Origin: Clostridium sp. AM34-11AC
Lineage (GTDB): Bacteria > Bacillota > Clostridia > Lachnospirales > Lachnospiraceae
Length of the DNA: 43,802 nucleotides
Assembly: GCF_003435375.1 (NCBI RefSeq)
Contig: NZ_QWGL01000027.1
Span: 1 to 43,802, forward strand
Direction of reading: 5' to 3'
A model generated the notes under the pieces. It had not been told where the DNA came from. It did no database searches and worked only from the letters and a program-made list of their open reading frames with translations. Positions 10,379 to 41,365 of the stretch are shown here, one piece after another. A program made the position numbers and the translations under genes. Each line of letters starts with the position of its first letter. The first letter of the stretch is position 1.

Positions 10379-10383
10379 AAAAT
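10379..10383. repeat. Target site duplication AAAAT (left copy)
   Basis: AAAAT here and at 41361-41365 flank the transposon ends exactly. A 5-bp duplication is the hallmark of Tn7-type insertion. Confidence 0.9.
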
Positions 10384-10610
10384 TGTTTAATTCCTTTTAT
10401 TTCCGAAACATTCCTTTTATACCCGAAACAAGGGATGCGGAAACGTAATAATTTTCCTTTTATATCCAAAACAAGCGGTGTAAAACAGGGATTTGAGTTT
10501 TCCTTTTATATCGCAAACAAAGAATAAAAATCAAAAAACCAGTTTTCCTTTTATATCCGAAACAAGAGGGTATAAGGGCGAGAACTGGTTTTCCTTTTAT
10601 TTCCGAAACA
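10384..10610 (+). repeat. Transposon left end (LE1): six TnsB-site-like repeats
   Basis: Six copies of TTCCTTTTATwTCCGAAACA lie at 10391-10410 (within the 27-bp terminus), 10411-10430, 10454-10473, 10500-10519, 10545-10564 and 10591-10610, all in one orientation. Two are adjacent at the tip and the rest are spaced by 25-27 bp. The arrangement is that expected for TnsB binding sites, and the assignment to TnsB is inference. Confidence 0.88.
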
Positions 10611-10634
10611 TCCGATTATCTGAAAAATACCCTC

Positions 10635-10663
10635 TTGCAATTTGAAATACTTGATGATATAGT
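10635..10663 (+). promoter_or_regulatory. Promoter just inside LE1
   Basis: TTGCAA, a 17-bp spacer and TATAGT point into the transposon. The same promoter recurs inside the second left end (41604-41632). A weaker related promoter (TTGGAA, 18 bp, TATAGT at 10804-10809) follows and may serve the gene at 10901. Confidence 0.7.
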
Positions 10664-10667
10664 GGCG

Positions 10668-10762
10668 GCAACGGTTTGGCGAATGCTGAAACCGGAATTA
10701 TGACAAAGCGCTTTATGATTTCAGGCAGGAACGTCGGAGTGAAAATTTGACTCAAAACGTTA
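10668..10762 (+). ncRNA. Candidate conserved RNA or regulatory block inside LE
   Basis: The stretch after the promoter is nearly identical to 41637-41749 apart from a ~16-bp insertion there, yet neither copy keeps an open frame. It contains a CGGTTT/AAACCG hairpin, the palindrome AAAGCGCTTT and an outer AACGT/ACGTT pair. It could be a small RNA, a leader or a protein-binding region. Conservation is seen; function is inference. Confidence 0.4.
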
Positions 10763-10900
10763 TCCGCAGAAATCGCTAATTGGAAATTCGAATTCGATGA
10801 TGATATAGTTGCAACGAAAAAATAACACGGATACCGGGTTCGGGATTTTATCGCAGCGGTCGGTGAAATACCCGTGTGATAAAATTAAGGAGTGGATGAG

Positions 10901-11257
10901 ATGCATTTGGATCAGTCGGCATTGGGAATCCTGCGTAAAGCAGAAGATAAGAACGGTCGGAAATACATGGATTGGCGGATACCGTATATGGATCAGCCAG
11001 GTCTGATCATGGTCTATAAATCCGACAGCCGGTATGAAAAGTATATGATTTACTTTTTCACAAGTCCGGCAAGCGATTGTCCGGGCAAATATCTGCACAC
11101 AACCTACGGAAGTATCCAGGTGGAAGATGGTTCATTGACAATCAGAACAAAGAACAGCGTCTATGAATTTGAACTGGATGCGTCATGTGTTTCAAAGGCG
11201 GATATGGTTTTGCTGTTACATACGGTAAACGAATATTTTCGTGATAACAGCATGTAA
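10901..11257 (+). CDS. Hypothetical cargo protein
   Basis: I chose ATG 10901 (MHLDQSALGIL) because AAGGAG sits 8 bp upstream. A GTG at 10892 overlaps that SD. The product of 118 residues is soluble and mixed, with a beta-rich centre (GLIMVYKSDSRYEKYMIYFFTSP) and DGSLTIRTKNSVYEFELD. No signal peptide, membrane segment or family was recognised. It is the first cargo gene and lies 100 bp ahead of the PARG-like gene. Confidence 0.65.
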   Translation: MHLDQSALGILRKAEDKNGRKYMDWRIPYMDQPGLIMVYKSDSRYEKYMIYFFTSPASDCPGKYLHTTYGSIQVEDGSLTIRTKNSVYEFELDASCVSKADMVLLLHTVNEYFRDNSM

Positions 11258-11357
11258 GGCGGACGAGGCCAGGCACTGGGCTACGGGAGTGATTCCGCGG
11301 CCGTTTTCATAGCGTTGGGATCTGAAATTAACAAAGAGAAAAAGGAATGATAAACGT

Positions 11358-12194
11358 ATGAGCAGTTTTGAAAATGTAGAAATTTTTGAAGATACTAAAA
11401 GACTGTGTGAAACAAACGGAAAGATTAAGGACGCTCTTGCGCGGTCTGTGAAAAACCAGAAGCTGATTCTGGAAGGAACGGAGCTGTCTGCTGTGGATAA
11501 GGCACGCTTTGAAGATGAAGCGAAGATCATCGTATCCACAAAGCGGACTTTCGAGGCGGCTGCAGGTTATGCAGGCCAGAAAGTAGCGGTACATAACTTT
11601 GCCTCTGCGACCAATCCGGGCGGTGGCGTGACAAGGGGATCCAGCGCGCAGGAAGAGTGTCTGTGCAGATGCTCCGGGCTGTATTTCTGCCTGAGCGTAC
11701 CGGAAATGATGAAGAGCTTCTATTATCCGCATCGGAATGCGAAAAATCCGATCAACAATGCAGATATCATCTATACGCCAGATGCGACCGTATTCAAGAC
11801 AGATACTAGCCGCCCGAAGCTGATGGATGAGAAGGACTGGTATGATGTGGATGTGATCACCTGCGCAGCGCCGAACCTGCGGAAGAGGCCGAGCAACCAG
11901 TTCAACCAGGATAACGGTGACCGGTCGGTAAAAGTCAGCGACAAGGAGCTTCTGGAAATCCATAAGAAGAGACTGACAAGGATTCTGGATGTTGCCGCAT
12001 TGAATGGCGCTGAAGTGGTAATTCTTGGTGCTTTCGGATGCGGTGCGTTTCAGAATAAGCCGGAAGTGGTGGCAAGAGCAGCAAAAGAAGTAATTGCGGA
12101 TTATCTGCACACATTTAAAACCATTGAATTTGCCGTATACTGTTCCCCGCGGGATGATACAAATTTCAAGGTGTTTAAGCGAGTGATGGGTTAA
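11358..12194 (+). CDS. Microbial PARG-like macrodomain protein (TIGR02452/DUF2263 type)
   Basis: The 278-residue protein has the PARG signature: NPGGGVTRGSSAQEE with GGG at 88-90 and the two catalytic-type glutamates at 99-100, then YTPDATVFK and VITCAAPNLR, and a C-terminal LGAFGCGAFQNKP loop typical of the macro fold. These enzymes remove ADP-ribose from proteins or nucleic acids, or bind its derivatives. SD AAAGGAATG precedes the ATG. It is followed after 24 bp by an unknown gene and then kptA, an NAD-using enzyme whose by-product is an ADP-ribose phosphate, so a shared pathway is likely. The residue assignment is by eye. Confidence 0.85.
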   Translation: MSSFENVEIFEDTKRLCETNGKIKDALARSVKNQKLILEGTELSAVDKARFEDEAKIIVSTKRTFEAAAGYAGQKVAVHNFASATNPGGGVTRGSSAQEECLCRCSGLYFCLSVPEMMKSFYYPHRNAKNPINNADIIYTPDATVFKTDTSRPKLMDEKDWYDVDVITCAAPNLRKRPSNQFNQDNGDRSVKVSDKELLEIHKKRLTRILDVAALNGAEVVILGAFGCGAFQNKPEVVARAAKEVIADYLHTFKTIEFAVYCSPRDDTNFKVFKRVMG

Positions 12195-12218
12195 ATACGA
12201 ATGTGAGGAGGTAACGGG

Positions 12219-12812
12219 ATGAAGAAAATCAAAAAAGGCGGAAAAGAGAATGAGGCAGCTTCCTTCTATACTGCGGATGAGTTCTTTTTACGGAAAGGAT
12301 ACCAGATCCCGGATCTGGTGACTGAAGTCAGAAAAGAAGCATACGTTTCGGGATTCAACCGTGGCCAGGAGCAGGCGTATTATGGATTCTGGAATAAAGA
12401 CTGCCAGAAATTATTCAAGGAAGATGAAGAGACGCGGAAGGTTGAGGAACATGAACATTGCTGGACAGCGCATGACGAGTGGCAGGAACATGTCGCCAGA
12501 ACGGCGTTTAATCTTGCGGCATCTGCTTACAAGGAGTATATGGGCGGAAAGAGCAGCGTGGACGATGCGATGAATGCCATTGTTGCCGTACTGCGCACGG
12601 AGTTCGTGAATACAAGGGTAAAACAGGTTGCGGAAAACGCCGGAAAGATAATCCCGGTACCGCCGGAAGAAAAATGGCTGAGCGATGATGAGGATGAAGG
12701 CGAAGGCGTGAGCATGCTGACCATGACACGTGAGATTCTGAAAGAGGGAAGAAAAGAGGGCTATGATATCGGCTATATGAAAGGATATATGGCGGCACAG
12801 TCAAAAGAGTAG
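12219..12812 (+). CDS. Hypothetical protein in the PARG-KptA operon
   Basis: The 197-residue protein begins at ATG 12219 after GAGGAGG. The N-terminus is basic ([11 protein letters not shown]), the middle is charged and aromatic ([22 protein letters not shown]), and a later acidic patch (SDDEDEGEG) precedes a helical end ([14 protein letters not shown]). It has no membrane segment. I do not recognise the family. Gaps of 24 and 28 bp place it inside one operon with the PARG-like gene and kptA. Confidence 0.75.
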
Positions 12813-12840
12813 GCATTACAGTGGAAGGGCAGGTGAGAAT

Positions 12841-13377
12841 ATGGGACATCAGGACAATGCCGGAAAATTCATAGCGTTTATTTTGCGGCACCACCCGGAA
12901 GCCATTGGTATGAAACTGGATGAACACGGATGGGCGCGTACGGAAGATCTGATTGCCGGGATAGCGAAGAGCAGACCATTTGACATGCAGATGCTGGAAG
13001 AAATTGTACGGACTGATTCCAAGCAGCGGTATTCCTTCAATGAGGATAAAACGCTGATCCGGGCAAACCAGGGGCATTCCATTCCAGTGGATGTGGAACT
13101 GGAGCAAAAGACCCCGCCGGATGTTTTATGGCATGGAACGGGAGAGAAGTATGTGGAATCAATCAATCGGATTGGATTGATTCCGAAATCCAGGCTGTAT
13201 GTGCATCTGTCAAAAGATTATGAGATTGCCAAAACAGTGGGGAACCGACATGGAAAGCCGGTTGTATACCGGGTAAATGCAAAGCAAATGGCAGAAGATG
13301 GCTATCCGTTCTATTTATCGGTAAATGGGGTATGGCTGACCAAAGAAGTGCCTGTACAGTATTTAAGCACTTTATAA
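12841..13377 (+). CDS. kptA: RNA 2'-phosphotransferase, Tpt1/KptA family
   Basis: The 178-residue, full-length protein has the family landmarks: [16 protein letters not shown] with catalytic-type Arg16-His17, [45 protein letters not shown] and [15 protein letters not shown]. KptA moves an internal RNA 2'-phosphate to NAD, giving ADP-ribose 1'',2''-cyclic phosphate and nicotinamide. Relatives can also ADP-ribosylate 5'-phosphate ends. Bacteria mostly lack the matching tRNA-splicing route, so a repair or conflict role is often suspected. Placement after a PARG-like gene fits product turnover. SD GGGCAGGTGAG. Confidence 0.94.
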
Positions 13378-13399
13378 AAACGTTCTGCAGTAAAGAATA

Positions 13400-13450
13400 T
13401 AAAACAGAGATGCGAGGTTCTCTCGATGGAACCTCGACCTCCCTGTTTTA
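13400..13450. terminator. Bidirectional terminator between convergent genes
   Basis: Outer TAAAACAG/CTGTTTTA and inner GAGGTTC/GAACCTC stems lie between kptA (plus) and the S51-like gene (minus). A/T runs on both sides suit both directions. Confidence 0.75.
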
Positions 13451-13529
13451 TTACTCCGTTTTTCTCTAAAGTTCTTACTCCGTCAATGTCTTATTTTCAG
13501 GAGCAATTCCATAAACTGGAATTTTCAAA

Positions 13530-14132
13530 TTAGTCTTTGCAAACAACCTTTGAACCTTCACCATCAATTACAATTCCCTGACGGTTGTTAATTGGGCATA
13601 GATTCAAATCCGAAAATTCAGTCATTATTTTCTCAGTAACTTTCTTAAATGGTGCTGTAAGATAATGCGGAAGAACATAGAAATCAAGCAAATCAAGCCC
13701 TGCATCATCTTCTTGTGAGTAGTCCTCCGGTTTTTCATCCATTTGTTCAATATATTGGATAGTTGGAGCGCATATAATCGCACCCGCCGATTCACCAATC
13801 ATCAGTTTTCCCTTTGCCAATTCCTTCTTCAATAGCTCATCCGTTCCCGTTTTACGGAGCTGGTCCATAAGGAAGAACGAATTTCCACCAGTAAAATATA
13901 TCACATCCGCATCTTCAAAAACGGACTGTATCGTTAAATAAGCCTCCGTTGAAATATCAATTTCAGTTACGGCTGCTCCCAGTTTATTGAATAGCTTTCG
14001 AGCCGAGCCGACATAACCGGTATAGCCTTCACGCAGCGAAGCTGTTGGAATAAATGCGACTTTCTTGTTATCAATTTCTTCTTTTATCAAACTTCCTACA
14101 CTTGAAAAGTGCGAACATAAAAACAGTTTCAT
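13530..14132 (-). CDS. Peptidase S51-like protein (class I GATase fold)
   Basis: The start is the ATG ending at 14132 (MKLFLCSHFSS), with GGAGG 6 bp upstream. The product is 200 residues. VIYFTGGNSFFLMDQLR and LMIGESAGAIICAPTIQY give the nucleophile elbow GESAGA with the catalytic Ser, and FYVLPHYL supplies the His of the dipeptidase E-like triad. Such proteins hydrolyse Asp-dipeptides or related substrates, and the cellular role here is unknown. It shares the leftward group with the methyltransferase (37 bp gap). Confidence 0.88.
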   Translation of the reverse strand: MKLFLCSHFSSVGSLIKEEIDNKKVAFIPTASLREGYTGYVGSARKLFNKLGAAVTEIDISTEAYLTIQSVFEDADVIYFTGGNSFFLMDQLRKTGTDELLKKELAKGKLMIGESAGAIICAPTIQYIEQMDEKPEDYSQEDDAGLDLLDFYVLPHYLTAPFKKVTEKIMTEFSDLNLCPINNRQGIVIDGEGSKVVCKD

Positions 14133-14169
14133 CCATATCCTCCATTTATACCTTATAGGTGTTTTAGTT

Positions 14170-14931
14170 CTATCTATCCACTTTTTTGTTCGCCGATACA
14201 ATCAGCATCATGGGACGGCGCATTTCATCCTGCATCCCCGGAATATCCATCATGTATTCCGGCGGCTGCGGCTCCACAATATGATTTATTATAAAACCAT
14301 TTGAAAGCAGTGTATTTAGATATGTGGTCAGTGTTCTATGAAATTTTGTAACCTTTTCTCCCAAAAACACAGCTGTTCGTTTGCCCTCATAATAATAATT
14401 ATCCACCGGAAAATGCAGTATTTCTCCTTTTTTGTTATAATACCAGTCTTGTGTTCCATAGGCAGTAAAAACAGGATGTTCAACCGTAAAAACTAGCTTA
14501 CCACCAGACTTCAGTATTCTATATATCTTTTTTACTAAAATCTCATAATCTGCTACATAGTGAAACGCAAGTGAACTTAATATTACATCAAAACTCTCCT
14601 CTGGGAATTCCACATCTTCTATAGCACAGCATTTATATTCAACCTGTGGAAAATGTGTTTTTTCTTTGGCTACCTCGAGCATTTTATGAGAAATATCAAC
14701 ACCTACAACAGAAGACGCTCCGTGTTCCATCGCATAAATACAGTGCCATCCATAGCCGCATCCTAAATCAAGCACACGCTTATCTTTAAAATCCGGCAGC
14801 AGCTTTCTCAATGTTTCCCATTCTCCTGCACCGGCTAGTCCCTGCTGTGAGCGACTCATTTGACTGTATTTTTGAAAAAATATATCATCATCATATTTGT
14901 TTTCTTTTCCATATTCTACATAATTCAACAT
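14170..14931 (-). CDS. SAM-dependent methyltransferase, class I
   Basis: The 253-residue protein has motif I VLDLGCGYGWHCIYA, motif II around VVGVDIS, then YKCCAIEDVEFPEESFDVILSSLAFHYV and a late YRILKSGGKLVFTVEHP. All are typical of Methyltransf_11/25 proteins acting on small molecules. It has no membrane segment. SD AGGTGAAAGATG overlaps the start. The substrate cannot be told. Gene order S51-methyltransferase suggests a transferred metabolic or resistance pair. Confidence 0.92.
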   Translation of the reverse strand: MLNYVEYGKENKYDDDIFFQKYSQMSRSQQGLAGAGEWETLRKLLPDFKDKRVLDLGCGYGWHCIYAMEHGASSVVGVDISHKMLEVAKEKTHFPQVEYKCCAIEDVEFPEESFDVILSSLAFHYVADYEILVKKIYRILKSGGKLVFTVEHPVFTAYGTQDWYYNKKGEILHFPVDNYYYEGKRTAVFLGEKVTKFHRTLTTYLNTLLSNGFIINHIVEPQPPEYMMDIPGMQDEMRRPMMLIVSANKKVDR

Positions 14932-15032
14932 CTTTCACCTCGCTGTAAACTTCAAAGTTTCTGTTCCTTACAAATTTCGATTTATCGTGATACAAAATAT
15001 TCAGCTTTTTTCACCCATTCTTTTTTTATTTC

Positions 15033-15515
15033 TCACATGGTTGCCTGGGTACTAAGATGTGGATGTACTTCACCTTCAAAAGAACAGCTGATATCGAAAA
15101 TATTTTCCCAGCTTTTCTGTTTTTCCTCTTCAGAATACACTGCTGAATCGTCAATAGGGAAAATAATGTCGCCATCATTTAGGACGCAGTGCCAGTAATC
15201 AAAATCAGAAAGTAAAACCAGATTGTCCGGGACTTCAATAGTCAGTAAAACAATAGGTGTACCTTTTTCTCCCCAATTACGCCCATGCACACGCATATCC
15301 AGTCGTTTCCGCATGCCTTCCCACTGGTACCAGGCCCACACGGGGAATATAACACCTTCTGGTGGTTCACCTATACGCTTTTTCATTTGCTCTGCCATCC
15401 ACAGATAAGAATCTTCAAACCAATCCGTCGCAATGAAATTTTTGTCTGCTCTGAGCACTCCGGTTTGTTCCATTTTTTCATATGTACATTGATGCTGTAT
15501 GGACCACAAAAGCAT
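15033..15515 (-). CDS. DUF3841-like protein
   Basis: ATG at 15513-15515 (MLLWSIQHQCTYEKMEQTGVLRAD) is preceded by GTGAGGTGTACT. A GTG 12 bp earlier lies within the SD. The 160-residue protein shows IQHQ..Y..M...GVL, WFEDSYLWMAEQMKKRIG and FPVWAWYQWEG, the DUF3841 pattern. The fold resembles ADP-ribosyltransferase-like or NAD-binding small domains in some descriptions, but no activity is established. It is separate from the methyltransferase by 101 bp. Confidence 0.8.
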   Translation of the reverse strand: MLLWSIQHQCTYEKMEQTGVLRADKNFIATDWFEDSYLWMAEQMKKRIGEPPEGVIFPVWAWYQWEGMRKRLDMRVHGRNWGEKGTPIVLLTIEVPDNLVLLSDFDYWHCVLNDGDIIFPIDDSAVYSEEEKQKSWENIFDISCSFEGEVHPHLSTQATM

Positions 15516-15607
15516 AGTACACCTCACTTAAATCTTCTGAGTTATTTATTATTCTACCATAAAAAATAGAGCCAGTGTAAAAAATCACGCCAACCCTATC
15601 CGGACAT

Positions 15608-16057
15608 TCATTCTTCAGTTTCAGAAAATCCAAATATCAGAGAAAATTCCACCTCATTACTGCCGGACCACCTGTTGACGCTGATATGATCCGCCGCAGC
15701 CATGGCCATCCGCATCCGTTTCTGGGTGGCCGTGATATCAAAACCGCACCGGCCGGTAAAAGTTGCGGTAATATCATGAAAATGGTCCTGCCGGATAGTC
15801 AATTTGGCACCGGTCAATTCTGCAAATCCCTTCAGGATCGGCAGAAGAGCCGCATCAAACCATGCTCTGAAATCCCGTACCGCATCATCAGCGCGTTCCC
15901 GGCGTACTTTTTCAATAGCCTCTATAGCGGCCGCAGCTTCTTCTTGTGAGAGGTTTTCTGCCATGTCGGCTAAATTACCGGCTTGATCCGTACCGGTATA
16001 ATCAAATTCGAGTACATTATCGTTTTCATTGTTTTCCAAAAGTTCATTCTGTTCCAT
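15608..16057 (-). CDS. Hypothetical protein under Xre control
   Basis: I chose ATG 16055-16057 (MEQNELLENNEND) with GGAGAA upstream. A longer frame to 16165 would run through the operator. The product is 149 residues. It has an acidic N-terminus, a helical middle (LSQEEAAAAIEAIEKVRRERADDAVRDFRAWF) and a beta-rich end (GRCGFDITATQKRMR ... EVEFSLIFGFSE). No family is recognised. The palindrome at 16085 sits 28 bp upstream, so the repressor at 16190 probably regulates it. Confidence 0.72.
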   Translation of the reverse strand: MEQNELLENNENDNVLEFDYTGTDQAGNLADMAENLSQEEAAAAIEAIEKVRRERADDAVRDFRAWFDAALLPILKGFAELTGAKLTIRQDHFHDITATFTGRCGFDITATQKRMRMAMAAADHISVNRWSGSNEVEFSLIFGFSETEE

Positions 16058-16084
16058 AAAGCATATTCTCCATAGATTTATATA

Positions 16085-16100
16085 TTGTTCTTTAGAACAA
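16085..16100. promoter_or_regulatory. Palindromic operator TTGTTCTTTAGAACAA
   Basis: A near-perfect dyad upstream of the gene ending at 15608. Related copies lie upstream of the Xre gene (16510-16606), so one repressor likely controls both. Confidence 0.72.
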
Positions 16101-16189
16101 ATATAGCATATAAAAGATGGGAAAGAAATTATTTTCGTTCGACGTGTTTCGACAAAAAACGACAAAAATGGAGGATCACAGAGATCCTC

Positions 16190-16504
16190 CTATTCGAGAT
16201 AAGCCTTGAGAGCTTTCATCAATCTTTTCTGTTCATCCGGTGGAAGAGTATGGATTGCTTCCGGTAGACCATTCGCCAATCCATCCACGGAATGAGTGAC
16301 AACATCAACCAGGAGGGTATCCGCGGAGACATCCAAAGCATTTGCTATGGCGACGAACGTATCTAATCTTACAGTTTTCATACCGCGTTCAATGACACTT
16401 ATATGTGTTGAACTGAGATCGACAATGGCAGCCAGATTTTCCTGTGTCAAGCCTTTTGCTTCCCTTGCGGTCTTAATACGCAATCCTACTGCTTTTAAAT
16501 CCAT
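16190..16504 (-). CDS. Xre-family transcriptional regulator
   Basis: The 104-residue protein has an N-terminal HTH_3 domain (VGLRIKTAREAKGLTQENLAAIVDLSSTHISVIERGMKT) and a short helical tail (LPPDEQKRLMKALKAYLE). SD AAAGGAG precedes the start. Operators related to TTGTTCTTTAGAACAA lie on both sides, which implies autorepression and control of 15608. It could be the regulator of this cargo block. Confidence 0.92.
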   Translation of the reverse strand: MDLKAVGLRIKTAREAKGLTQENLAAIVDLSSTHISVIERGMKTVRLDTFVAIANALDVSADTLLVDVVTHSVDGLANGLPEAIHTLPPDEQKRLMKALKAYLE

Positions 16505-16509
16505 CGTAC

Positions 16510-16606
16510 ATCTCCTTTAGCACAAAAAATTGGTCTAAAGATATTATATCTGTTGGGCAGGATGCAATACAGAATCTACGAAACTATATATTGGTCTAAA
16601 GAACAA
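16510..16606. promoter_or_regulatory. Cluster of Xre operator-like sites
   Basis: TTGGTCTAAAGAACAA (16591-16606), TTGGTCTAAAGATATT (16530-16545) and a half-match over the SD (CTTTAGCACAA, 16515-16525) repeat the motif at 16085. They cover the expected Xre promoter and the 3' end of the secreted fragment. Confidence 0.65.
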
Positions 16607-16881
16607 TATAAGGAAAGATTATGAATGATTATTATCTTGCATGCGTCTGATTCATGTTGCAAATCCTGTGCTAATTCCGTGGTGCGTACATAAATATCAC
16701 CGCTACAGTTCGCGCCGGTGTCGCTGTACAGATGGTTATCCGTGCAAATTCCGTAGTCTTTACTATACGCATAGGATGTCAATGATGCAAATTGACTGAT
16801 ATCAATGGTACCAGTTGCGAGCAATACAGCAAGCAGCCCGGCAACCGGACGCTTCCAGTTCCCTTTTTTATGTTTTTGCAT
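16576..16881 (-). pseudogene. Truncated secreted protein
   Basis: The 101-residue frame starts with a good signal peptide: KHKKGNWKRPVAGLLAVLLATGTI..SQFASLTSYAYS. SD GGAAGGAG precedes it. The mature part is only ~65 residues, loses homologous character after TTELAQDL, and ends in the Xre operator DNA. The N-terminus resembles long Lachnospiraceae surface proteins, so I read it as the 5' stub of a larger gene. A genuine small secreted protein is possible. Confidence 0.55.
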
Positions 16882-16967
16882 AGATTCTCCTTCCTTACTT
16901 TTTTTATAGGCTAATTATGGAGAAAAATGATGCAAATTTGGTTTTGATGTGATTTTGTTATACATAC

Positions 16968-17001
16968 AAAAAAGACTTCCTCTAATTTCTTAGAGAAAGT
17001 C
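16968..17001 (-). terminator. Terminator of the transglutaminase-like gene
   Basis: GACTTCCTCTAA/TTAGAGAAAGTC stem (one mismatch) followed on the minus strand by TTTTTT. Confidence 0.75.
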
Positions 17002-17020
17002 CTTGTGTTGGAGAAACGAT

Positions 17021-18427
17021 TTATTCGTATTTAATGTATTCACCGAAATTGAAATTGTAAGACTGTCTTGTTCCGAGTTTTGAAGTTTCTCTCCAATCAT
17101 TAACGAGGTCGATAGCTCCGTTTTCAGCCATATGCGGAACGCCGTCTGCCTGTACAATCCAACATGCGTGTACTGTGTCCCCGACAACGGCGCATTTTAA
17201 ACCAAGCAGCGTTGCAAGCAGATGTCCTGTATCAGCAAAATCAATACATACGCCCTTTTTGTTGATAAGCACCTGATAAAATTTATCGTACGTATGCAGA
17301 CTTGGATTGTTTTTTACTTCATCGTCGTATTTTGATCCGATTAACAATTCTGAAATCTTTGCGAGTCTCTCTGGTTCTGTAGCATGTTCGAAATCAAAAC
17401 TATTTAACCAGTTCCTCAACACAGCAATAACTTCATCGGCCTGTTTTTTCTCTTCGTCTGTCATGGAATTTACACGATTGAATGGATCTGTTTGACCGGT
17501 CAGCTGTGCGATGTAATAACCATAGTTTGTGATAAACTGATTGTGTCCTGCGAGTCCGTGATGATTAATTTCCGAATATTTTTCAAGCCAGTCTTTAGTT
17601 GCTTCAATATTCAGTGCATACAGATCCACGACCCTTTTAAGTGGATAATTACTATCATACGCTACATCACGCACCTTGCCGCCTTCATAGGTCAAGCCAA
17701 GTTCTTCTGCAGTGGCAGTTTTAATTTTGCCGTTTTCATCCAGTACGCGGTACAGGTAATCGATTGTCACTCCGTCAGGAGTTGTCCATTTATCGAATGT
17801 CCAGTACGACTGCGCATTCGGATAAAGTTTCATCTGGTAACCTGCAGATGTCGGATCTCCGATATCTCCCGCTGCTTTTGTATCTGTTTTTCCGTGATAA
17901 TACAGAATATATTCGTTACCACCGTTCCAGTTGCGCCAGTACATATTGTCGCCAACTTTCAAATCGGTTGTTGGAAATGCGACACCAGTTCCAACTGGGT
18001 TTACTCTTGTAGTATTCTCCGGTTTATCGACATCTCTCATATAGCTGACAAGGCTCGACTGTTTGACGTTGGATTTTGCGGAAGACTGGGTTTTTCCTGT
18101 TGAACCGGTACTTTTTACAGTCCCCTGCGTCTTTACCACGCCGTTCTCTACCCACTGTCCGTCTGCATTTACGGTATAGCCGTCCGGGGTTGTGGTGTTG
18201 GTTAAGAGGTAACCGTCTGCACCGAAATAATAACTCTCGGAAATGCCGTCCCCATTACCATCCAGCCATTTCCATTCATTCTTCGGATAGCTGCCGTTTT
18301 CATCCCACCAGTATCCGTTTGCATCCTGTTTCCATTGCCCGGCCAATGCGGTTGTTGCAGAACCTGCTACCATGGCCGTTGCCAGTGACAGAGCTACCGC
18401 TTTTTTGTAAATTTGCTTTTTACCCAT
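17021..18427 (-). CDS. Secreted transglutaminase-like protein with cell-wall-binding repeats
   Basis: The 468-residue protein has a signal peptide (KKAVALSLATAMVAGSATTALA), then choline/cell-wall-binding-type repeats (GQWKQDANGYWWDENGSYPKNEWKWLD, YYFGADGYLL, VNADGQWVENG) to about residue 90, a Ser/Lys linker, and a C-terminal transglutaminase/protease-like domain. The likely triad is Cys394 (GVCIDFA), His420 (DTVHACW) and Asp440. It would act on the cell surface, crosslinking or cutting peptides. It has its own promoter (18475-18503) and terminator. The gene is intact, unlike its truncated neighbour. Confidence 0.88.
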   Translation of the reverse strand: MGKKQIYKKAVALSLATAMVAGSATTALAGQWKQDANGYWWDENGSYPKNEWKWLDGNGDGISESYYFGADGYLLTNTTTPDGYTVNADGQWVENGVVKTQGTVKSTGSTGKTQSSAKSNVKQSSLVSYMRDVDKPENTTRVNPVGTGVAFPTTDLKVGDNMYWRNWNGGNEYILYYHGKTDTKAAGDIGDPTSAGYQMKLYPNAQSYWTFDKWTTPDGVTIDYLYRVLDENGKIKTATAEELGLTYEGGKVRDVAYDSNYPLKRVVDLYALNIEATKDWLEKYSEINHHGLAGHNQFITNYGYYIAQLTGQTDPFNRVNSMTDEEKKQADEVIAVLRNWLNSFDFEHATEPERLAKISELLIGSKYDDEVKNNPSLHTYDKFYQVLINKKGVCIDFADTGHLLATLLGLKCAVVGDTVHACWIVQADGVPHMAENGAIDLVNDWRETSKLGTRQSYNFNFGEYIKYE

Positions 18428-18474
18428 AATGTTCCTCCTTTGTTCGTTAGCCCTTTTTCTTGCGCTATAGACTT

Positions 18475-18503
18475 ATTATAGTTCCTTGGGTGATTTCTGA
18501 CAA
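18475..18503 (-). promoter_or_regulatory. Promoter of the transglutaminase-like gene
   Basis: On the minus strand TTGTCA (18498-18503), a 17-bp spacer and a perfect TATAAT (18475-18480) lie 48 bp before the start. Confidence 0.75.
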
Positions 18504-18589
18504 TGCTTTTGTATTCTGCCGATATCCAAAAGAACTATTTTAATTCTGTTTTCAAGAAAAATTCAGCTGTACTATGAATAGTATATCGT

Positions 18590-18609
18590 ATTGTGGATAT
18601 ATACACAAT
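18590..18609. promoter_or_regulatory. Palindrome upstream of small HTH gene
   Basis: ATTGTG-gatata-TACACAAT-like dyad (TTGTG...CACAA) 51 bp before the HTH start, possibly its operator. The rest of 18504-18660 shows nothing else clear. Confidence 0.45.
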
Positions 18610-18660
18610 ATTGATCTGAAAGAAAATCAGCTATGATTGTTCGCAGGAGGAGGACTTGTC

Positions 18661-18858
18661 ATGGTTGATTACAGCCCGCTGTGGGACACAATGCGCAAAC
18701 GCGGAATAACGCAATATATGATTCTGCAGGATAAGGTCCTCGATAATCATACGCTTGATCGTCTGAAAAAGAACATGAACATCACGTTGATTACATTGGA
18801 GCGTATCTGCACCTATCTGGATTGCACACCGAATGACGTGATTCGGTTTACAAAATAG
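18661..18858 (+). CDS. Small Cro/CI-type HTH protein (HTH_26 type)
   Basis: The 65-residue protein starts at ATG 18661, 8 bp after AGGAGGAGG. SPLWDTMRKRGITQYMILQDKVLDNHTLDRLKKN..ITLITLERICTYLDCTPNDVIRF is the compact HTH_26 pattern common in Firmicutes mobile elements. It is divergent from the transglutaminase gene and upstream of the HEPN gene, with a terminator between. Confidence 0.85.
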   Translation: MVDYSPLWDTMRKRGITQYMILQDKVLDNHTLDRLKKNMNITLITLERICTYLDCTPNDVIRFTK

Positions 18859-18891
18859 AACAGTAGTATATTTGATCGGAAATTATAAATA

Positions 18892-18932
18892 AAATCCCAT
18901 GTCAGTGCCGCGCGGCGGTTGACTTGGGATTT
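18892..18932 (+). terminator. Terminator after small HTH gene
   Basis: Long stem AAATCCCA.GTCA / TGAC.TGGGATTT with a GC-rich inner hairpin (GCCGCGCGGC), then TTTGTT. Confidence 0.7.
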
Positions 18933-18996
18933 GTTCGTATAGAGATTTTTTATGTACACCTTATAAATACCTCATTGAATGGAGTAGAGCAATTAT

Positions 18997-19950: not shown

Positions 19951-19989
19951 AAGAAGCGACAGCAGTATACTACAGGAACAATGATAAGA

Positions 19990-20015: not shown

Positions 20016-20040
20016 ATTCGTTATGTATGTTTCTTTTATA

Positions 20041-20232: not shown

Positions 20233-20250
20233 TGTGTCGCCTCCTTCTTT

Positions 20251-32167: not shown

Positions 32168-32181
32168 AAGGAGCCTGTACC

Positions 32182-34251: not shown

Positions 34252-34319
34252 GACCCAATGGTATGATAATGGTAGACTCCTTGGGGATTGGAATAGAATT
34301 ATACAAAAAGGAGAAAAAA

Positions 34320-35120
34320 ATGGGAAGAATTTACGTTACTGGAGATATTCACTCGGAGCCGGATCGGTTTAATACGGAAAATTTTCCGGAACAGAAAGAA
34401 ATGACCCGGGATGATTATGTTATTATCTGCGGTGATTTTGGGCTGGTATGGTCGGAGGATCGGGAAAGTAAGAGAGAGACCTGGTGGCTCGACTGGCTGG
34501 AAAACAAAACATACACCACCCTTTTCGTGGACGGGAATCATGAAAACTTTACCAGACTCAACTCACTTCCAATAGAAGAGTGGCACGGTGGCCGCGTTCA
34601 TAAAATTCGGGAACACGTCATCCATTTGATGCGGGGTGAGATGTTCGATTTGGATGGGAAAATGATCTTTACTTTTGGCGGCGCACGTTCTCATGACATT
34701 GATGGTTTTGCCACAAACAGTGCTTTAAAGAAAGATTATACGGCGGGAATTTTGCAGCCGGATGATCCGCTGATTTACGAAAAATTAAAAATATTGCGAA
34801 CAACAAATTGCTGTGCCAGAATCGAAGAGGTGAGCTGGTGGCGGTCAGAAATGCCGACCCGATTGGAAATGCTGCATGGACTGGAAACGTTGAAAGCTCA
34901 CAATTGGAAAACGGATTTTATCTTTTCCCATGACGGACCGTCTTCCAGCCTGGAGATTCTGGGAGGCGGACTTTTGTCTCCAGATCCGCTGAATCAATAT
35001 CTGGAAAAAGTGAAAAAGAAGACTTCATACAATAAATGGTTTTTCGGTCATCATCATGTGGACCGTCAAATCACGGAAAAAGACTCCGTGATTTATGAGC
35101 AGATCACAAGAATCTGCTAA
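34320..35120 (+). CDS. Metallophosphoesterase inside the transposition operon
   Basis: ATG 34320 after AAAAAGGAG gives 266 residues. The calcineurin-like metal sites are complete: GDIHSEP, ICGDFGLVWSEDRE, DGNHENF, FSHDGPSSSL and FFGHHHVDRQ. It should be a cytosolic phosphoesterase acting on nucleotides, DNA or phosphoproteins. It lies 68 bp after tniQ1 and before the terminator and second tniQ. Tn7 has no such subunit. It could be cargo, a regulator or a DNA-end processing factor. Function is inference. Confidence 0.88.
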   Translation: MGRIYVTGDIHSEPDRFNTENFPEQKEMTRDDYVIICGDFGLVWSEDRESKRETWWLDWLENKTYTTLFVDGNHENFTRLNSLPIEEWHGGRVHKIREHVIHLMRGEMFDLDGKMIFTFGGARSHDIDGFATNSALKKDYTAGILQPDDPLIYEKLKILRTTNCCARIEEVSWWRSEMPTRLEMLHGLETLKAHNWKTDFIFSHDGPSSSLEILGGGLLSPDPLNQYLEKVKKKTSYNKWFFGHHHVDRQITEKDSVIYEQITRIC

Positions 35121-35207: not shown

Positions 35208-35249
35208 CCATAATTTATGCAAAGAAGTTATGGAAAGGAAGTGCTATTT
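35208..35249 (+). promoter_or_regulatory. SD-pairing leader hairpin of the second tniQ
   Basis: CTTCCATAA (from ~35210) can pair with TTATGGAA just ahead of AGGAAG, the SD. The same sequence type precedes 38056 and 38939, and relics occur at 37774 and 37870. It is an operator or translation-control hairpin; which one is not known. Confidence 0.55.
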
Positions 35250-37661
35250 ATGCTTATGCCGACATGCCTGAAACCTTATCCCGGTGAACTGCTGTACGGC
35301 TGGATTGTACGGTTATTCAGGGTCAATATGTACGATTCCATTGAGAAATTCTGTGCAGCTTATATCCCGTATGAAGATCGAAAATTTAAAATGGGGAAAC
35401 CGGTTCCCGTTCGTCTGGATTACCGATTCAATCTGGACCATATATGCTCGGAGAACGAAGAATTCGAATGTTTCCCGGATGTCAGGAGCATGATTGCGGA
35501 AATGACACCGCTCACAGCCCTGTTTCCGTTTATGACCAGGGGATATCAGGCGGAATGTATGGAAATTCTGCTCCGGGAACATAGCGGCTGCAAACTGGAT
35601 ATCCCCGTAATGGACAGTGACATCACTGAGTTGCACGTATGCCCGGACTGCGCGCGGGAGGATATTGCCGCATATGAAAGACCGTATCTTCATACCGTCC
35701 ATCATTTGCCTGGCGTTCGGATGTGTCCGAAACATCACCGGGTACTGATGCGTGTACAGATAGAACCGGACGATTGGGAACGCGGACTTGATGACGGGTC
35801 CATGGTTCCGGTGGAGCTTAGAGCAGATGAAACAACGGAACAGCGTATCAGTGAGTTTATGCGGAAATTATATGAGTGCCCGCCGGATCTGGATCTGAAT
35901 GGCTTACAGGCGATGATTCTGGCGCGCATGGGAGAAGGCGGATATCCACTGGAGTCACCGTACGGAAATCTTGCGGATGATCTTTGGACTGCCGGATATG
36001 CCGGTCTGTTCGCCGGTAAAACGGATGTGCGTGTGTTCAAGGTTCTGTCACAGAAGAAAATTGTACCGGAAGACGCGATTGCACTGTTGTTATTCCTGTT
36101 CCATGATTACGAGGATTTTCAGAAGGCGGCATTGAAGGTACAGACGGATGATACGGGAACGCTTGCCGAGCTTTTCCCGGGATACATCGTGCATTCCGTG
36201 GATCACTGGATTGCAGAACTGGAGTGTCGGAAATGCGGGGAGCGGTTCCATATCCATCCTTATGCTCTTTTCCTTGGTGCCGGATGTCCAAAATGTGACC
36301 GGGAAGCGGATCCGGATGAGGTGTTTCAGCGCCAGCTTCATATGATTGGGGACGGTACCTACGAACTGGAGGAACACTTCCCGGGATATGGAAGACCCGT
36401 AAAGATCCGACATAAGACCTGTGGCAAGGAACGTAATGTGAACGCCACGGAGCTGATATGGATGGAGAAACGTTGTTACTGTGAAACATATCTCAGACAG
36501 GAAGAACTGCAGGCAAGGATCGACAGGGCCGCGCATGCGGAAAATACATACACGTTGGTGAAATACCGGGGCGGTAAGGGAATCGGACAGTTCGTGACGC
36601 TCCGGCATGAGGAATGCGGAGGCGAATTCACAGTATCTCTTCGGGAATTTGAACGGGCACCGTTCTGTCGTTGCTGCAGGAGCGGTCAGGCGGTCGTTGA
36701 CCGCTTCGGAGAGAGATTTCATGAACTCATGGGCGATGAGTATGAAATGGTCACTCCCTATCAGGGACTGTCAAAGATGATGACGGTACGCCACCGCACC
36801 TGCGGAACAACAACCGAAGGATATGCCCTCAGCTTTCTGAACGGCAAGCGGTGTGCCCTGTGTACGCCGATCATACCGAAGGAAGACATGAGAGGATATG
36901 TGACGGAGTGTACCGGCGGGGAATATCGTGTGAGCAGCATTGAACGGAACACGATAACGGTATGCGGCCCGGACGGAAAGGAACTGACGAACTCGGTACA
37001 GTTTTTTATACAGGAGCTTTCGCTCGGCGAGAAATCCTCCGTGTTTAATCACGTGGTCAAAAAACCGGAAATTCCCCTGCGGGATGCCGCGGTTTTGTAT
37101 TTCAAGGCGAAGGAAGTCTGCGGAAAATATGGAGTCTGGATACCGGAAGAAACGGACGCCGCCATGGAGTTTGCAAAGATTCAGTATCTGTCACGTCAGC
37201 TGCTTGCCGAAGGGCACCTGTTCCGGAAATGTCCGGGCGTATTCTCCGTGGATCTGGATGTTCCCGATGAGACTGCAATCCGGGAGATTTACCTGGAGCG
37301 TCGCGGGGAACATATCGGGGCTTATTACCATGAATCCGCCGCGTACCATGCCGGTATTCTGGATAAGAAACCGGAAACGGAATACATTCTGTGTAATGAC
37401 GTGAAAACGGATGACTTCAGGAATCAGAAGGTGGGAAATACAAAGTTCAAAACCAGAGCGGCATATGCGGAAATCAATAACCGGAATTACAGGGCAATCG
37501 AGGGGATCAATCTGCTGATGTTTTCCGGCAAGCACCCGGAATATAAAAAACAGGTAGAAGACTGGCTTCTGGAGAACCGCGTGTATGTTGCAGATATGGA
37601 GCCGTATTTCCAGTATTATCCGAATATGATCAAAAAGATTGTCAAGGGACTTTTTAAATAG
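35250..37661 (+). CDS. tniQ: TniQ/TnsD-type target selector 2, larger paralogue
   Basis: ATG 35250 (MLMPTCLKPYPGELLYGWIVRLF) with AAGGAAG gives 803 residues. The same TniQ core (FPFMTRGYQ, CPDCAREDIAAYERPYLHTVHHLPGVRMCPKH) and four zinc modules as the first copy are seen (CRKCGERFHIHPY...CPKC; HKTCGK...CYC; HEECGGEF...CRCC; HRTCGT...CALC). A longer C-terminal part (~120 residues, DFRNQKVGNTKFKTRAAYAEINNRNY ... FSGKHPEYKKQVEDWL) is extra. It has its own leader after the operon terminator, so it may be used under different conditions and at a different target. Confidence 0.9.
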   Translation: MLMPTCLKPYPGELLYGWIVRLFRVNMYDSIEKFCAAYIPYEDRKFKMGKPVPVRLDYRFNLDHICSENEEFECFPDVRSMIAEMTPLTALFPFMTRGYQAECMEILLREHSGCKLDIPVMDSDITELHVCPDCAREDIAAYERPYLHTVHHLPGVRMCPKHHRVLMRVQIEPDDWERGLDDGSMVPVELRADETTEQRISEFMRKLYECPPDLDLNGLQAMILARMGEGGYPLESPYGNLADDLWTAGYAGLFAGKTDVRVFKVLSQKKIVPEDAIALLLFLFHDYEDFQKAALKVQTDDTGTLAELFPGYIVHSVDHWIAELECRKCGERFHIHPYALFLGAGCPKCDREADPDEVFQRQLHMIGDGTYELEEHFPGYGRPVKIRHKTCGKERNVNATELIWMEKRCYCETYLRQEELQARIDRAAHAENTYTLVKYRGGKGIGQFVTLRHEECGGEFTVSLREFERAPFCRCCRSGQAVVDRFGERFHELMGDEYEMVTPYQGLSKMMTVRHRTCGTTTEGYALSFLNGKRCALCTPIIPKEDMRGYVTECTGGEYRVSSIERNTITVCGPDGKELTNSVQFFIQELSLGEKSSVFNHVVKKPEIPLRDAAVLYFKAKEVCGKYGVWIPEETDAAMEFAKIQYLSRQLLAEGHLFRKCPGVFSVDLDVPDETAIREIYLERRGEHIGAYYHESAAYHAGILDKKPETEYILCNDVKTDDFRNQKVGNTKFKTRAAYAEINNRNYRAIEGINLLMFSGKHPEYKKQVEDWLLENRVYVADMEPYFQYYPNMIKKIVKGLFK

Positions 37662-38005: not shown

Positions 38006-38055
38006 TCTTCCATAATTGTTCCGCAAGAAAATTTATGGAAGGAGGTTTTCTTTTT
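38006..38055 (+). promoter_or_regulatory. SD-pairing leader hairpin of first TasA-like gene
   Basis: CTTCCATAA pairs with TTATGGAAG, which is joined to the SD GGAAGGAGG. A strong anti-SD hairpin with a ~15-nt loop containing CCGCAAGAAA. Confidence 0.65.
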
Positions 38056-38814
38056 ATGAGGAAATCAAAGAAGCAGATGGTCATGGCAGCAGCAGCCTGT
38101 GCCATGATGGGAGTAATGGCCATCGGAGGAACCATGGCGTATTTAACTGACAGTGAGACCGCAACCAACACTTTTACCATTGGTCAGGTAAAGATTGATC
38201 TGGAAGAGCCGGAGTATGCAAAACTGACGGAAACCCAGAAGCAGCACCTGGTACCGAACCAGATCGTGGCAAAGGACCCGCAGGTGGAGAATACCGGTGT
38301 CAACGATGCAATCGTATTCTTAAAGGTTGAGATGCCGAAGAAGGCCGTAATTGTGGCAGAGAAAGACGGCACAAGAAAGACCACTGCGGTGACCGAGCTC
38401 TTTACCATGCTGAATACCGATATCGATCCGGCAACTGACGGCAGTACCGCTGGAAAGAACTGGGTAGAGCTTCAGGGCGATGATACCGGTGCTGATACAA
38501 ATGTACATGTTTATGCTTACAAGGAGAAACTGGCAAAGGATGCCAAGACCACGGCACTGTTTGACAGTATCCAGCTGCAGAACGTCATCGAGGGACAGAT
38601 CGATACCAATACCGAAAATATCAAGGTGACCGCTTACGCGATCCAGGCAGCCGAGGTGCTGGAGGGCGAGGATACCGACCTGACCGATACCCTGACCAAA
38701 GAGAATCTGCAGAAGATCTATGATATCTACGGCAAGCAGAACAACGGTCAGACCGTCCCGGAAGCAAATACCAATAACAGCAAGAACCTGGAAGGCAATG
38801 ACCTGTCAGTCTGA
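38056..38814 (+). CDS. TasA/camelysin-like secreted protein (SipW-type signal)
   Basis: ATG 38056 (MRKSKKQMVMAAAACAMMG) lies after GGAAGGAGG, and the frame upstream includes that SD. The product is 252 residues. The SipW-type signal region reads GGTMAYLTDSETATNTFTIGQVKIDLEEP, the shared N-terminus of TasA and camelysin. The mature part is a jelly-roll-like beta protein (NTGVNDAIVFLKVEMP, ENIKVTAYAIQAAEVL). It would be exported and form fibres or coat matrix. No sipW gene is in the window, so the host enzyme must process it. Confidence 0.9.
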   Translation: MRKSKKQMVMAAAACAMMGVMAIGGTMAYLTDSETATNTFTIGQVKIDLEEPEYAKLTETQKQHLVPNQIVAKDPQVENTGVNDAIVFLKVEMPKKAVIVAEKDGTRKTTAVTELFTMLNTDIDPATDGSTAGKNWVELQGDDTGADTNVHVYAYKEKLAKDAKTTALFDSIQLQNVIEGQIDTNTENIKVTAYAIQAAEVLEGEDTDLTDTLTKENLQKIYDIYGKQNNGQTVPEANTNNSKNLEGNDLSV

Positions 38815-38833
38815 TCATATTTTCATAAAACAA

Positions 38834-38864
38834 GAGCCTGTTCCTTATCGGAGCAGGTTCTTTT
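38834..38864 (+). terminator. Terminator after first TasA-like gene
   Basis: GAGCCTGTTCC/GGAGCAGGTTC stem, TTAT(C) loop, TTTT tail. Confidence 0.85.
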
Positions 38865-38885
38865 GCGTTCCACCAATTCTGGGTG

Positions 38886-38938
38886 CAAATTTTCCATAAT
38901 TATACCGACAAAAAAATATGGAAGGAGGTTTTCTTTTT
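38886..38938 (+). promoter_or_regulatory. SD-pairing leader hairpin of second TasA-like gene
   Basis: TTTTCCATAA... pairs with TATGGAA just ahead of GGAGG. The loop contains ACCGACAAAAAA. The leader and first ~20 codons closely copy those of the first gene. Confidence 0.65.
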
Positions 38939-41047
38939 ATGAGGAAATCAAAGAAGCAGCTGCTTCGGACACTGATTGCCTGTGGTCTGGTGGTTTCCGT
39001 GGCAGCAGGCGGCACCGTGGCCTATCTGACCGATGCCGAGACAGCCACCAACACGTTCACGGTCGGCAAGGTCAAGATCGACCTGGAGGAACCCAGCTAT
39101 CCCGGAAATGACAGTGACGAGGTCAAAAACATCATCCCGAACCAGGAGATCGTGAAGGATCCGCAGATTGAAAATACCGGCAATAATGATGCTCTGGTAT
39201 TTATACGGGTGGAGATACCACAGGAAACGTTTACCGACGAGGATGACGGCATAGGAGAGCAGAAGAAGCAGGATCTGTTCCGATTAAAAGGCGTCAGTGA
39301 CCAGTGGGAACTGCTGCGGACGGAAACAGTGGCCGGGGAAGACGGGAAAGCAAAAACATCCTATGTGTACGGTTACAAAAAGACCCTGGGGAAAGACGCA
39401 ACCACGGACAAGCTGTTCCAGAAGGTACAGATGAAAAATGCTGTGGAATCCGATTTGAGCGGAAACGTGGAAGATATCATTGTGACCGCCTGCGCCATTC
39501 AGGCAACCGATATCCCGGATGTGAACCTGACACCTGGCAGTGATGGAAATCTGAGTAAGGATGCTCTGGATCAGGTATACACCATCTTCCTGAACCAGTC
39601 CGGGAACAAGACAAGCCGACCGGCAGATGAAGGTGACCGGAACCAGTCAGGAAAACTCGGTAAGATCAGCTATGAACTGGATGGAGGCACCCTGGCAGCC
39701 GGAACACTGACGGAGTATGGAAGCGCTGATTATGGATACACGCCGCCAGCTCCAGCGAAGAAAAACTATACTTTTACGGGATGGGAACCGGAGAACATTC
39801 CGGCCGGCAGCACGGGAACCGTAACAATGACTGCGAAGTGGACTGCAGATGTGCTTGGTAGCATTTCGTACAATCTGGATGGCGGCAACATAAGCGGAGA
39901 AAAGGCTTCCTATACAGCGGATGATTACGGATATATTCCTCCAACACCGACAAAAACTGGATATAAGTTCACGGGATGGAGTCCGGCAAAAATACAGACT
40001 GACAGTACAGGAAATGTGACTTTTGCAGCATCATGGGAAGAAGAAACAGCCACCACTCTGGATGGCGAAACATTAAATGCCAGAATGAAAGTATTGGCTG
40101 GAAAGAAAAATGCAGACTGTTATGAGGTAGATACCAAAATTACAGCAATCCAACATTCTATCCAAGAACCTTCAGATGAGATAAAAACAAATCCTACTTC
40201 ATTGGTATCTACAGAAGATTCCGAAGTTCCAGTATATATGTGGTTCGAGGATGGAACAATTAAGTGGTGGTCAGCAGCAAATTCAGTTGTAGCAAATTCA
40301 AATCTAAATTATTTATGTCATTACATGACAAACCTTATCGACATCAGTGGGTTATCAGATTTGGATACTAAAGACGTAACAAGCATGCGATCCACATTCT
40401 CTGCCTGTAACAATCTAACTGATTTAACAGCATTAAAACGTTGGGATACTAGAAATTTGATAGATGTCAGTTGTATATTTTCCCGTTGTACCAGCCTTTC
40501 TGATTTAACCCCACTAGCCAGCTGGAATACAAACAACATTACCAATATGGGAGATATGTTCAAAGAATGCATTAATCTTTTGAACTTAAATCCGTTAACA
40601 AATTGGAATACAAGCAATGTTACCAGTATGAATAACATGTTCTTTCAATGTGCCAGTCTTGCAAGTTTAACACCAATAGCTAACTGGGATACTGATAACC
40701 TCACAACAATGTCTGATATGTTTTATGAGTGTACCAGTCTCGTAAATCTGACGCCATTAACAAATTGGAATACAGAAAAAGTTGTGAATATGAATGGAAT
40801 ATTTAATAGGTGTAGTAGTATCGTTGATTTGAGTCCACTCGCAAGTTGGAATACTGGTAATGTAACAACTATGAGATATATGTTTAGTGGTTGTACGAAG
40901 TTGGCAAATCCTTCCGCCATCAACAATTGGGATATCTCAAGTGTCACTGCGTTTAAATACATGTTCCAGAACTGCCCATCGCACCCGATCTTCACCAAGC
41001 GAGCAGGTACCTGGGATAGCAAGGGCACCTTCACCCCAACAACCTGA
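38939..41047 (+). CDS. SipW-type TasA-like domain fused to InlB- and BspA-type repeats
   Basis: ATG 38939 gives 702 residues. The N-terminus repeats the SipW signal (GGTVAYLTDAETATNTFTVGKVKIDLEEP) and TasA-like domain to ~residue 235. Two InlB B-type repeats follow (GKISYELDGGTL...FTGWEP and GSISYNLDGGNI...FTGWSP). From ~residue 460, eight ~27-residue BspA-like (DUF285) units with the pattern W[ND]T-x2-V-T-x-M-x2-MF-x2-C-x-S-L occur, ending near NCPSHPIF. It is a surface protein that could anchor a binding module in a TasA-type fibre. Fully open reading frame. Confidence 0.9.
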   Translation: MRKSKKQLLRTLIACGLVVSVAAGGTVAYLTDAETATNTFTVGKVKIDLEEPSYPGNDSDEVKNIIPNQEIVKDPQIENTGNNDALVFIRVEIPQETFTDEDDGIGEQKKQDLFRLKGVSDQWELLRTETVAGEDGKAKTSYVYGYKKTLGKDATTDKLFQKVQMKNAVESDLSGNVEDIIVTACAIQATDIPDVNLTPGSDGNLSKDALDQVYTIFLNQSGNKTSRPADEGDRNQSGKLGKISYELDGGTLAAGTLTEYGSADYGYTPPAPAKKNYTFTGWEPENIPAGSTGTVTMTAKWTADVLGSISYNLDGGNISGEKASYTADDYGYIPPTPTKTGYKFTGWSPAKIQTDSTGNVTFAASWEEETATTLDGETLNARMKVLAGKKNADCYEVDTKITAIQHSIQEPSDEIKTNPTSLVSTEDSEVPVYMWFEDGTIKWWSAANSVVANSNLNYLCHYMTNLIDISGLSDLDTKDVTSMRSTFSACNNLTDLTALKRWDTRNLIDVSCIFSRCTSLSDLTPLASWNTNNITNMGDMFKECINLLNLNPLTNWNTSNVTSMNNMFFQCASLASLTPIANWDTDNLTTMSDMFYECTSLVNLTPLTNWNTEKVVNMNGIFNRCSSIVDLSPLASWNTGNVTTMRYMFSGCTKLANPSAINNWDISSVTAFKYMFQNCPSHPIFTKRAGTWDSKGTFTPTT

Positions 41048-41058
41048 TCTAATTCTAC

Positions 41059-41091
41059 AATCCTGCGGTGGTTGGCCGCAGGATTTTTTTT
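41059..41091 (+). terminator. Terminator before the right end
   Basis: Perfect AATCCTGCGG/CCGCAGGATT stem and eight T. Confidence 0.92.
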
Positions 41092-41109
41092 CTTCACTTT
41101 ACCTCCAGG

Positions 41110-41360
41110 TGTTTACGAAATAAAAGGAAAATTCGCACCATTCCTCAATACGCTTGTTTAGGATATAAAAGGAAAAAACTCACCGACATGAAACTTGCTT
41201 GTTTAGGAAATAAAAGGAAAACGCATTCTGCTTGTTTAAGAAATAAAAGGAAAAAACAGGATGCAGGAAAAATCGCTTGTTTGCGATATAAAAGGAAAAA
41301 ACGTACAGAAAAACAAGGGAAAAGAGGGGAGTATGTTTGCGAAATAAAAGGAAAGAAACA
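41110..41360 (-). repeat. Transposon right end (RE): six inverted sites
   Basis: Copies of TGTTTnGrwATAAAAGGAA, the reverse of the left-end site, start at 41110, 41155, 41200, 41233, 41278 and 41334. The last is the 27-bp terminal form ending GAAACA at 41360. Spacing is 25, 25, 13, 25 and 36 bp. With LE1 it makes an inverted pair of ends. Confidence 0.88.
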
Positions 41361-41365
41361 AAAAT
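41361..41365. repeat. Target site duplication AAAAT (right copy)
   Basis: The same AAAAT as 10379-10383 follows the RE tip directly. It also abuts the tip of the second left end, so both elements used the same flank. Confidence 0.9.

Follow-up and report, generated by a model that had tools for sequence, protein, structure and literature searches.

A Tn7-like transposon at a fixed point behind rsfS in a gut Clostridium, with relatives at rsfS and rnfB

The stretch of DNA analyzed here (the window) comprises 43,802 bp of Clostridium sp. AM34-11AC (contig NZ_QWGL01000027.1) and contains a Tn7-like element of 30,977 bp (positions 10384-41360) directly behind rsfS. With high confidence we read it as a cut-and-paste transposon of the Tn7-like kind whose insertion is directed to one fixed point behind this gene, with a tns operon that reads away from it. 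The presence of a complete-looking Tn7-like element at this attachment site, which was not found in print, is well supported. The intact target gene (10023-10376, forward strand; Pfam RsfS, 5.5e-34) is the last of an obgE-yhbY-nadD-yqeK-rsfS cluster, whose gene names were read from translations and matches to relatives.

Tn7 has multi-site TGT...ACA ends and generates a 5-bp duplication. Both features were found in the rsfS element. The 27-bp left tip of TGT...ACA type (TGTTTAATTCCTTTTATTTCCGAAACA, 10384-10410) and the right tip, read on the complement (TGTTTCTTTCCTTTTATTTCGCAAACA, 41334-41360), are identical at 23 of 27 positions as counted by eye, and the element is flanked by two copies of AAAAT (10379-10383 and 41361-41365). 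The rsfS stop codon, which ends at 10376, is followed by two bases and then by AAAAT, so that the left tip lies 7 bp past the stop. The left, rsfS-proximal end (10384-10610, forward strand) carries six direct sites starting at 10391, 10411, 10454, 10500, 10545 and 10591 (spacing 20, 43, 46, 45 and 46), whereas the right, rsfS-distal end (41110-41360, reverse strand) carries six inverted ones starting at 41110, 41155, 41200, 41233, 41278 and 41334 (spacing from the tip 56, 45, 33, 45 and 45). A pattern taken from the ends, searched over the whole window with up to two mismatches, gave 15 matches, whereas 100 dinucleotide shuffles gave 0.03 on average. The sites are predicted to bind TnsB, and the element would be polar, given the unequal spacing next to the tips (20 bp on the left, 56 bp on the right). 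A preliminary description of this DNA had claimed a complete Tn7-like transposon with exact ends, 2 bp past the rsfS stop. The tips, the six sites per end, the AAAAT pair and the two intervening bases can all be read as claimed; the span given then, 10379-41365, takes in both AAAAT copies.

The transposition genes lie on the forward strand near the right end. TnsA endonuclease (27394-28329, coordinates of the open reading frame as listed, with likeness to relatives strongest from about residue 77) matches Pfam at 1.1e-07 and Tn7 TnsA (1f1z) at E 3.4e-9. It is followed by the DDE transposase TnsB (28316-30508; Tn7 TnsB 7pik, E 3.9e-37 over residues 11-653) and the AAA+ regulator TnsC (30533-32167; Tn7 TnsC 8glu, E 8.8e-18). 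In the alignments, the residues at what we take to be the DDE catalytic positions of TnsB and the E/D/K positions of TnsA are kept. Two TniQ/TnsD-like genes follow, both with a Pfam TniQ domain: TniQ1 (695 aa, 32164-34251; Pfam 6.1e-10), for which no sequence match to TnsD chains was obtained at E up to 1, and TniQ2 (814 aa, 35217-37661), which has a TnsD-like N-terminal half, a Cys/His-rich middle and an AbiEi-like C-terminal part, and whose predicted structure shows a TnsD fold. Between them lies a calcineurin-like phosphoesterase gene (34263-35120; Pfam). The tns proteins received no family name from NCBIfam.

Public genomes scanned with TnsB yielded relatives in B. catenula (80% identity), a Lachnospiraceae metagenome-assembled genome (44%; G002), Coprococcus catus (32%) and a Bacteroidaceae metagenome-assembled genome (29%). 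In B. catenula (G001) rsfS is on the same contig as the tns genes, with a left end directly behind it. TniQ1 and TniQ2 are 81% and 91% identical to those of the window; TniQ2 and the right end are on a second contig. The two contigs belong together, judging from the phosphoesterase gene that is split across them and from TGTTT found on both sides; the split coincides with a reverse-transcriptase gene that is, by translation, of the group II intron kind. The third host, G224, has a left-end relic behind rsfS, interrupted by about 2 kb and 100% identical to the relic in the window (see below) over 134 bp. G001 and G224 are of different genera (each genus draw lacked the other) and the window NadD is only 52-55% identical to theirs, so that the three hosts likely represent three genera.

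The distance between the insertion and the stop codon of rsfS varies in the three hosts (7 bp in the window, 11 in G001, 8 in G224), whereas the distance from the Gly-Lys codons at the end of the conserved 3' coding block FYDLERIWRDGK (10314-10349, forward strand) to the tip is 34, 35 and 35 bp, respectively. These observations show that the insertion point keeps its distance to conserved rsfS codons, not to the stop. The block, which is the presumed recognition region of the target selector, was recognized, by 8 or more of its 11 residues, in 36/36 rsfS genes (35 fetched loci plus the window, excluding the Bacteroidaceae locus L032), and its 17-mer ATCTGGAGAGACGGAAA was exact in 10 of the 36 and within two mismatches in 25. 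Site-specific insertion beside this conserved gene thus recurs in three hosts. Homing to the 3' end of rsfS, an idea of the preliminary description, is supported by these hosts and by the fixed codon distance. That description had also looked to elements with the same tniQ genes at unrelated loci as evidence to the contrary; the sole other element found with closely related tniQ genes, that of B. catenula, also lies behind rsfS. Of the features for which it had sought conservation across insertions, the end repeats are conserved, and the 5 bp are AAAAT in one insertion and TGTTT in the other, a difference to be expected if they are duplicated target DNA.

What lies to the right of the element is not the native sequence downstream of rsfS: the right AAAAT is followed immediately by a second left end (41366-41748, forward strand, 383 bp), 75% identical to the element's own left end and 96% to that of B. 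catenula. This second left end contains the remaining three of the 15 site matches (41373, 41435 and 41561). Similarity ends at 41748, and within the window this relic, left by an earlier member of the family, has neither body nor right end. Thus the element most likely entered at the very base used by an older, since decayed copy, and came to lie between that copy and rsfS. The right AAAAT copy had been read correctly before, and the abutting left end had been overlooked. The right end in B. catenula also adjoins a relic left end. Beside that relic, a chimeric frame (L098, 8448-9143) fuses part of the first cargo gene of the element with an ABC-transporter gene, and is probably a deletion scar. 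A repeat of about 100 bp (41755-41855) follows the window relic and also flanks both sides of the 2-kb insertion in the G224 relic (contig C1, about 358100 and 355980; 90% over 101 bp and 83% over 76 bp); it probably belongs to another mobile element entering relics.

To compare the divergence of element and host, four-fold-site differences between the window and B. catenula were counted. They amounted to 18% for TniQ2, 29% for tnsA, 33-39% for tnsB, tnsC and tniQ1, 40% for a cargo gene and 50% for the phosphoesterase (58 sites), and to 53-70% for the host genes rsfS (23 sites), nadD and yhbY (53%, 32 sites). The lower divergence of the tns and tniQ genes, the different duplications and the stacked copies point to separate arrivals at the shared site, that is, to movement rather than descent. 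A single ancient insertion inherited by descent, which would leave the shared site silent on targeting, is already contradicted and in our judgment highly improbable: although the rsfS hosts fall within one family draw and the divergence of the phosphoesterase almost reaches that of one host gene, this explanation is at odds with the 18-39% of the tns and tniQ genes against 53-70% in the host genes, with AAAAT against TGTTT, with stacked insertions in two genomes, and with the lack of a tip in the six fetched hosts whose rsfS is most similar to that of the window (82-90%).

In 397 family genomes, where two candidates were scored per genome in the left-end and TnsB searches so that the counts are not proof of absence elsewhere, relic left-end DNA was matched in three (G001, G224 and G347); the G347 match (58 bp, 81%, beside a tRNA gene) was read as chance. 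TnsB matched 15 of the 397 at E ≤ 1e-20, mostly distant kinds. Tips at most 150 nt away from the codon block were seen in G001 and G224 alone among the 35 fetched rsfS loci. The tip pattern with at most one mismatch occurred in 35 of the 397 genomes, no more than its reversed control; G001 has the sole exact match, at its rsfS, and the G224 relic is among the one-mismatch matches. Left-end DNA was found in one of eight genomes of G224's genus (G224 itself), and TniQ2 in one of 24 of G001's genus and one of 330 in an order-wide draw, in both cases G001; viral contigs yielded no TniQ2 relative. A TniQ2-like cluster at 94% identity comprises 407 sequences on 59 contigs, which shows that such proteins are not rare in public data. 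Of two genomes with more distant elements, G003 has repeat-like sequence past tnsC with no clear tip, and G207 has a decayed copy with stops in tnsB, for which a search of 2 kb revealed no end.

The 44% relative, G002, likewise has tnsABC genes and two TniQs, with a similar end architecture, but its TniQs are 36-38% identical and its target is rnfB. Its left end lies directly behind rnfB on one contig and its right end on another, TGATG is duplicated at both ends, and past the right copy lies a terminator like those found after rnfB in its relatives. rnfB is present in 19 of 25 genomes of this genus, of which 18 are readable downstream (the contig stops in G720): five have ends behind rnfB (G002, G739, G740, G735 and G737), four a bare terminator, and nine neither terminator nor tip by the pattern used. 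The distance from the AEKCP codons to the tip is 43, 43, 44 and 43 bp in four genomes, in which the stop-to-tip distance is 15, 18, 19 and 12 bp; in G737 it is 43 bp by eye, with a variant codon. In that genome (L149) the tip, TGTTAA, supplies the rnfB stop codon. These spacings indicate that the fixed-distance rule holds at a second gene. The ends other than that of G002 are stubs, with the rnfB terminator following after 69-234 bp; tns genes were not found in the fetched stub DNA, which for three of the four stubs was just 294-515 bp. Judged by their end sequences, the stubs would belong to the G002 lineage. No shared DNA motif was seen by eye between the rsfS and rnfB blocks. Since the distant relative uses rnfB, the claim of homing to rsfS extends only to the lineage of the window.

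In the proposed mechanism, a TnsD-like protein would bind the conserved 3' coding block of rsfS and recruit TnsC, which would place TnsAB about 35 bp downstream of the block. Insertion at this distance would leave rsfS intact and the site reusable, hence the stacked, decaying copies. The rsfS-binding protein, whose identity we infer, is most likely TniQ2, with slightly better than even confidence, and the remaining TniQ is probably used for a second route, either another site or mobile plasmids. That TniQ1, or both TniQs jointly, read rsfS, TniQ2 alone serving at most another route, is a serious contender at somewhat below even probability: both proteins are present in the window, in B. catenula and in the rnfB element, and domain identities do not discriminate between them, while the greater length of TniQ2 and its extra AbiEi-like part argue weakly the other way. 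The constraint on TniQ2 was considered as proof that it reads rsfS and was rejected, because its silent sites, too, are less diverged (18% vs 33-39%). An arrangement of two chromosome-homing selectors, reading the 3' coding ends of rsfS and rnfB, with lineages switching between sites, unlike the chromosome/plasmid split of Tn7, appears unlikely.

Targeting could in principle depend on the DNA at the insertion point (AT-rich intergenic, terminator or replication features) and not on rsfS codons. The points are AT-rich by eye, and at rnfB they lie between stop and terminator in four genomes, but their sequence varies, whereas at both genes the spacing from the conserved codons stays the same to within 1 bp, and left-end DNA elsewhere amounts to one weak match among 397 genomes; we consider this explanation very improbable. 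Still less probable is that the element was drawn by an older left end already present. The window and B. catenula copies do abut relic left ends, yet the earliest insertions had to pick the point without a relic, and the G224 relic, together with rnfB, where four sites are empty and five occupied, shows that the bare gene end is used. Several observations weigh against homing to rsfS by TniQ2 as proposed: just three genomes have an insertion at rsfS, one of them a relic; the B. catenula element is spread over two contigs, joined by the split phosphoesterase and the duplication; the large-draw searches scored two candidates per genome; the phosphoesterase divergence is close to that of yhbY, both counted, as for rsfS, over few sites; per-domain identities fail to single out one TniQ; and the lower divergence of TniQ2, being shared by silent sites, speaks for exchange, not constraint.

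The geometry at rsfS is alike to that of Tn7 at glmS, where, according to excerpts of PMC2918618, TnsD binds the last 36 bp of the gene and insertion occurs about 25 bp downstream. The rsfS element resembles Tn7 in combining TnsA, TnsB and TnsC homologues and a TniQ/TnsD-family selector with multi-site TGT...ACA ends, a 5-bp duplication and insertion at a constant distance downstream of a conserved 3' coding block. It differs from Tn7 proper in its target (rsfS, not glmS), in its two large TnsD-like proteins and six sites per end, in the AbiEi-like part of TniQ2, and in its TnsB: of 3410 plasmid records with a TnsB match, all below 60% identity, the ten best listed are Tn7-type copies at 24-25%. 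The dual tniQ-tnsD loci in the available text of Faure et al. 2023 (PMC10293859) likewise have two such genes with tnsABC; as a rule one product exceeds 400 aa and the other is much smaller, whereas here they have 695 and 814 aa. TniQ/TnsD-directed attachment sites are shared with CRISPR-associated transposons (I-B, I-D and parE-targeting I-F3; PMC11406308, in part), but in the rsfS element no CRISPR-like array was found (direct repeats of at least 22 nt within 120 bp are the two ends and one further pair) and no Cas family in the main reading frames scanned, the sole Cas-named match being a weak one of the HEPN type (Cas13-ApeA, 9.9e-4). The attachment sites in Table 1 of PMC11406308 are glmS, yhiN, comM, parE and tRNA genes. 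rsfS does not occur in the main texts, excluding supplements, of PMC10293859 and PMC8649781, and no paper in the open-licence full-text literature was found to pair Tn7 or Tn7-like elements with rsfS, ribosome silencing factor, iojap or rnfB.

By domain matches, the cargo (10892-27116) includes a PARG-type macrodomain, Tpt1/KptA, peptidase S51, a methyltransferase, a transglutaminase-like choline-binding protein, two Rep3-type initiators, helix-turn-helix proteins and an Apea-like HEPN protein (below the Pfam cut-off); PADLOC gave weak HEPN-type matches and nothing else. The macrodomain and Tpt1/KptA genes, both for enzymes of ADP-ribose chemistry, lie near each other (11358-13377) and possibly form a single system. 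The two Rep3-type plasmid replication initiators are neighbours (21234-23027), the first only near the Pfam cut-off, and are a trace of plasmid DNA. Just inside the right end lie two SipW-dependent/camelysin-like surface protein genes (38035-41047, forward strand), the second with DUF285 and List_Bact repeats and kept in B. catenula (72% over 655 aa). Outside the element, upstream of ribosomal-protein genes and obgE, positions 14-5541 contain a reverse transcriptase, a phage-type lysozyme/amidase and a transposase that we take, from its make-up, to be IS30-like.

Taken together, two natural Tn7-like attachment sites, rsfS and rnfB, are indicated in gut Lachnospiraceae. Because the spacing is fixed, the recognized codons can be predicted, and the rsfS block is conserved in those family genes that were examined, which makes the TniQ pair a testable case of TnsD-type target change and the element a candidate site-specific integration system for gut commensals.

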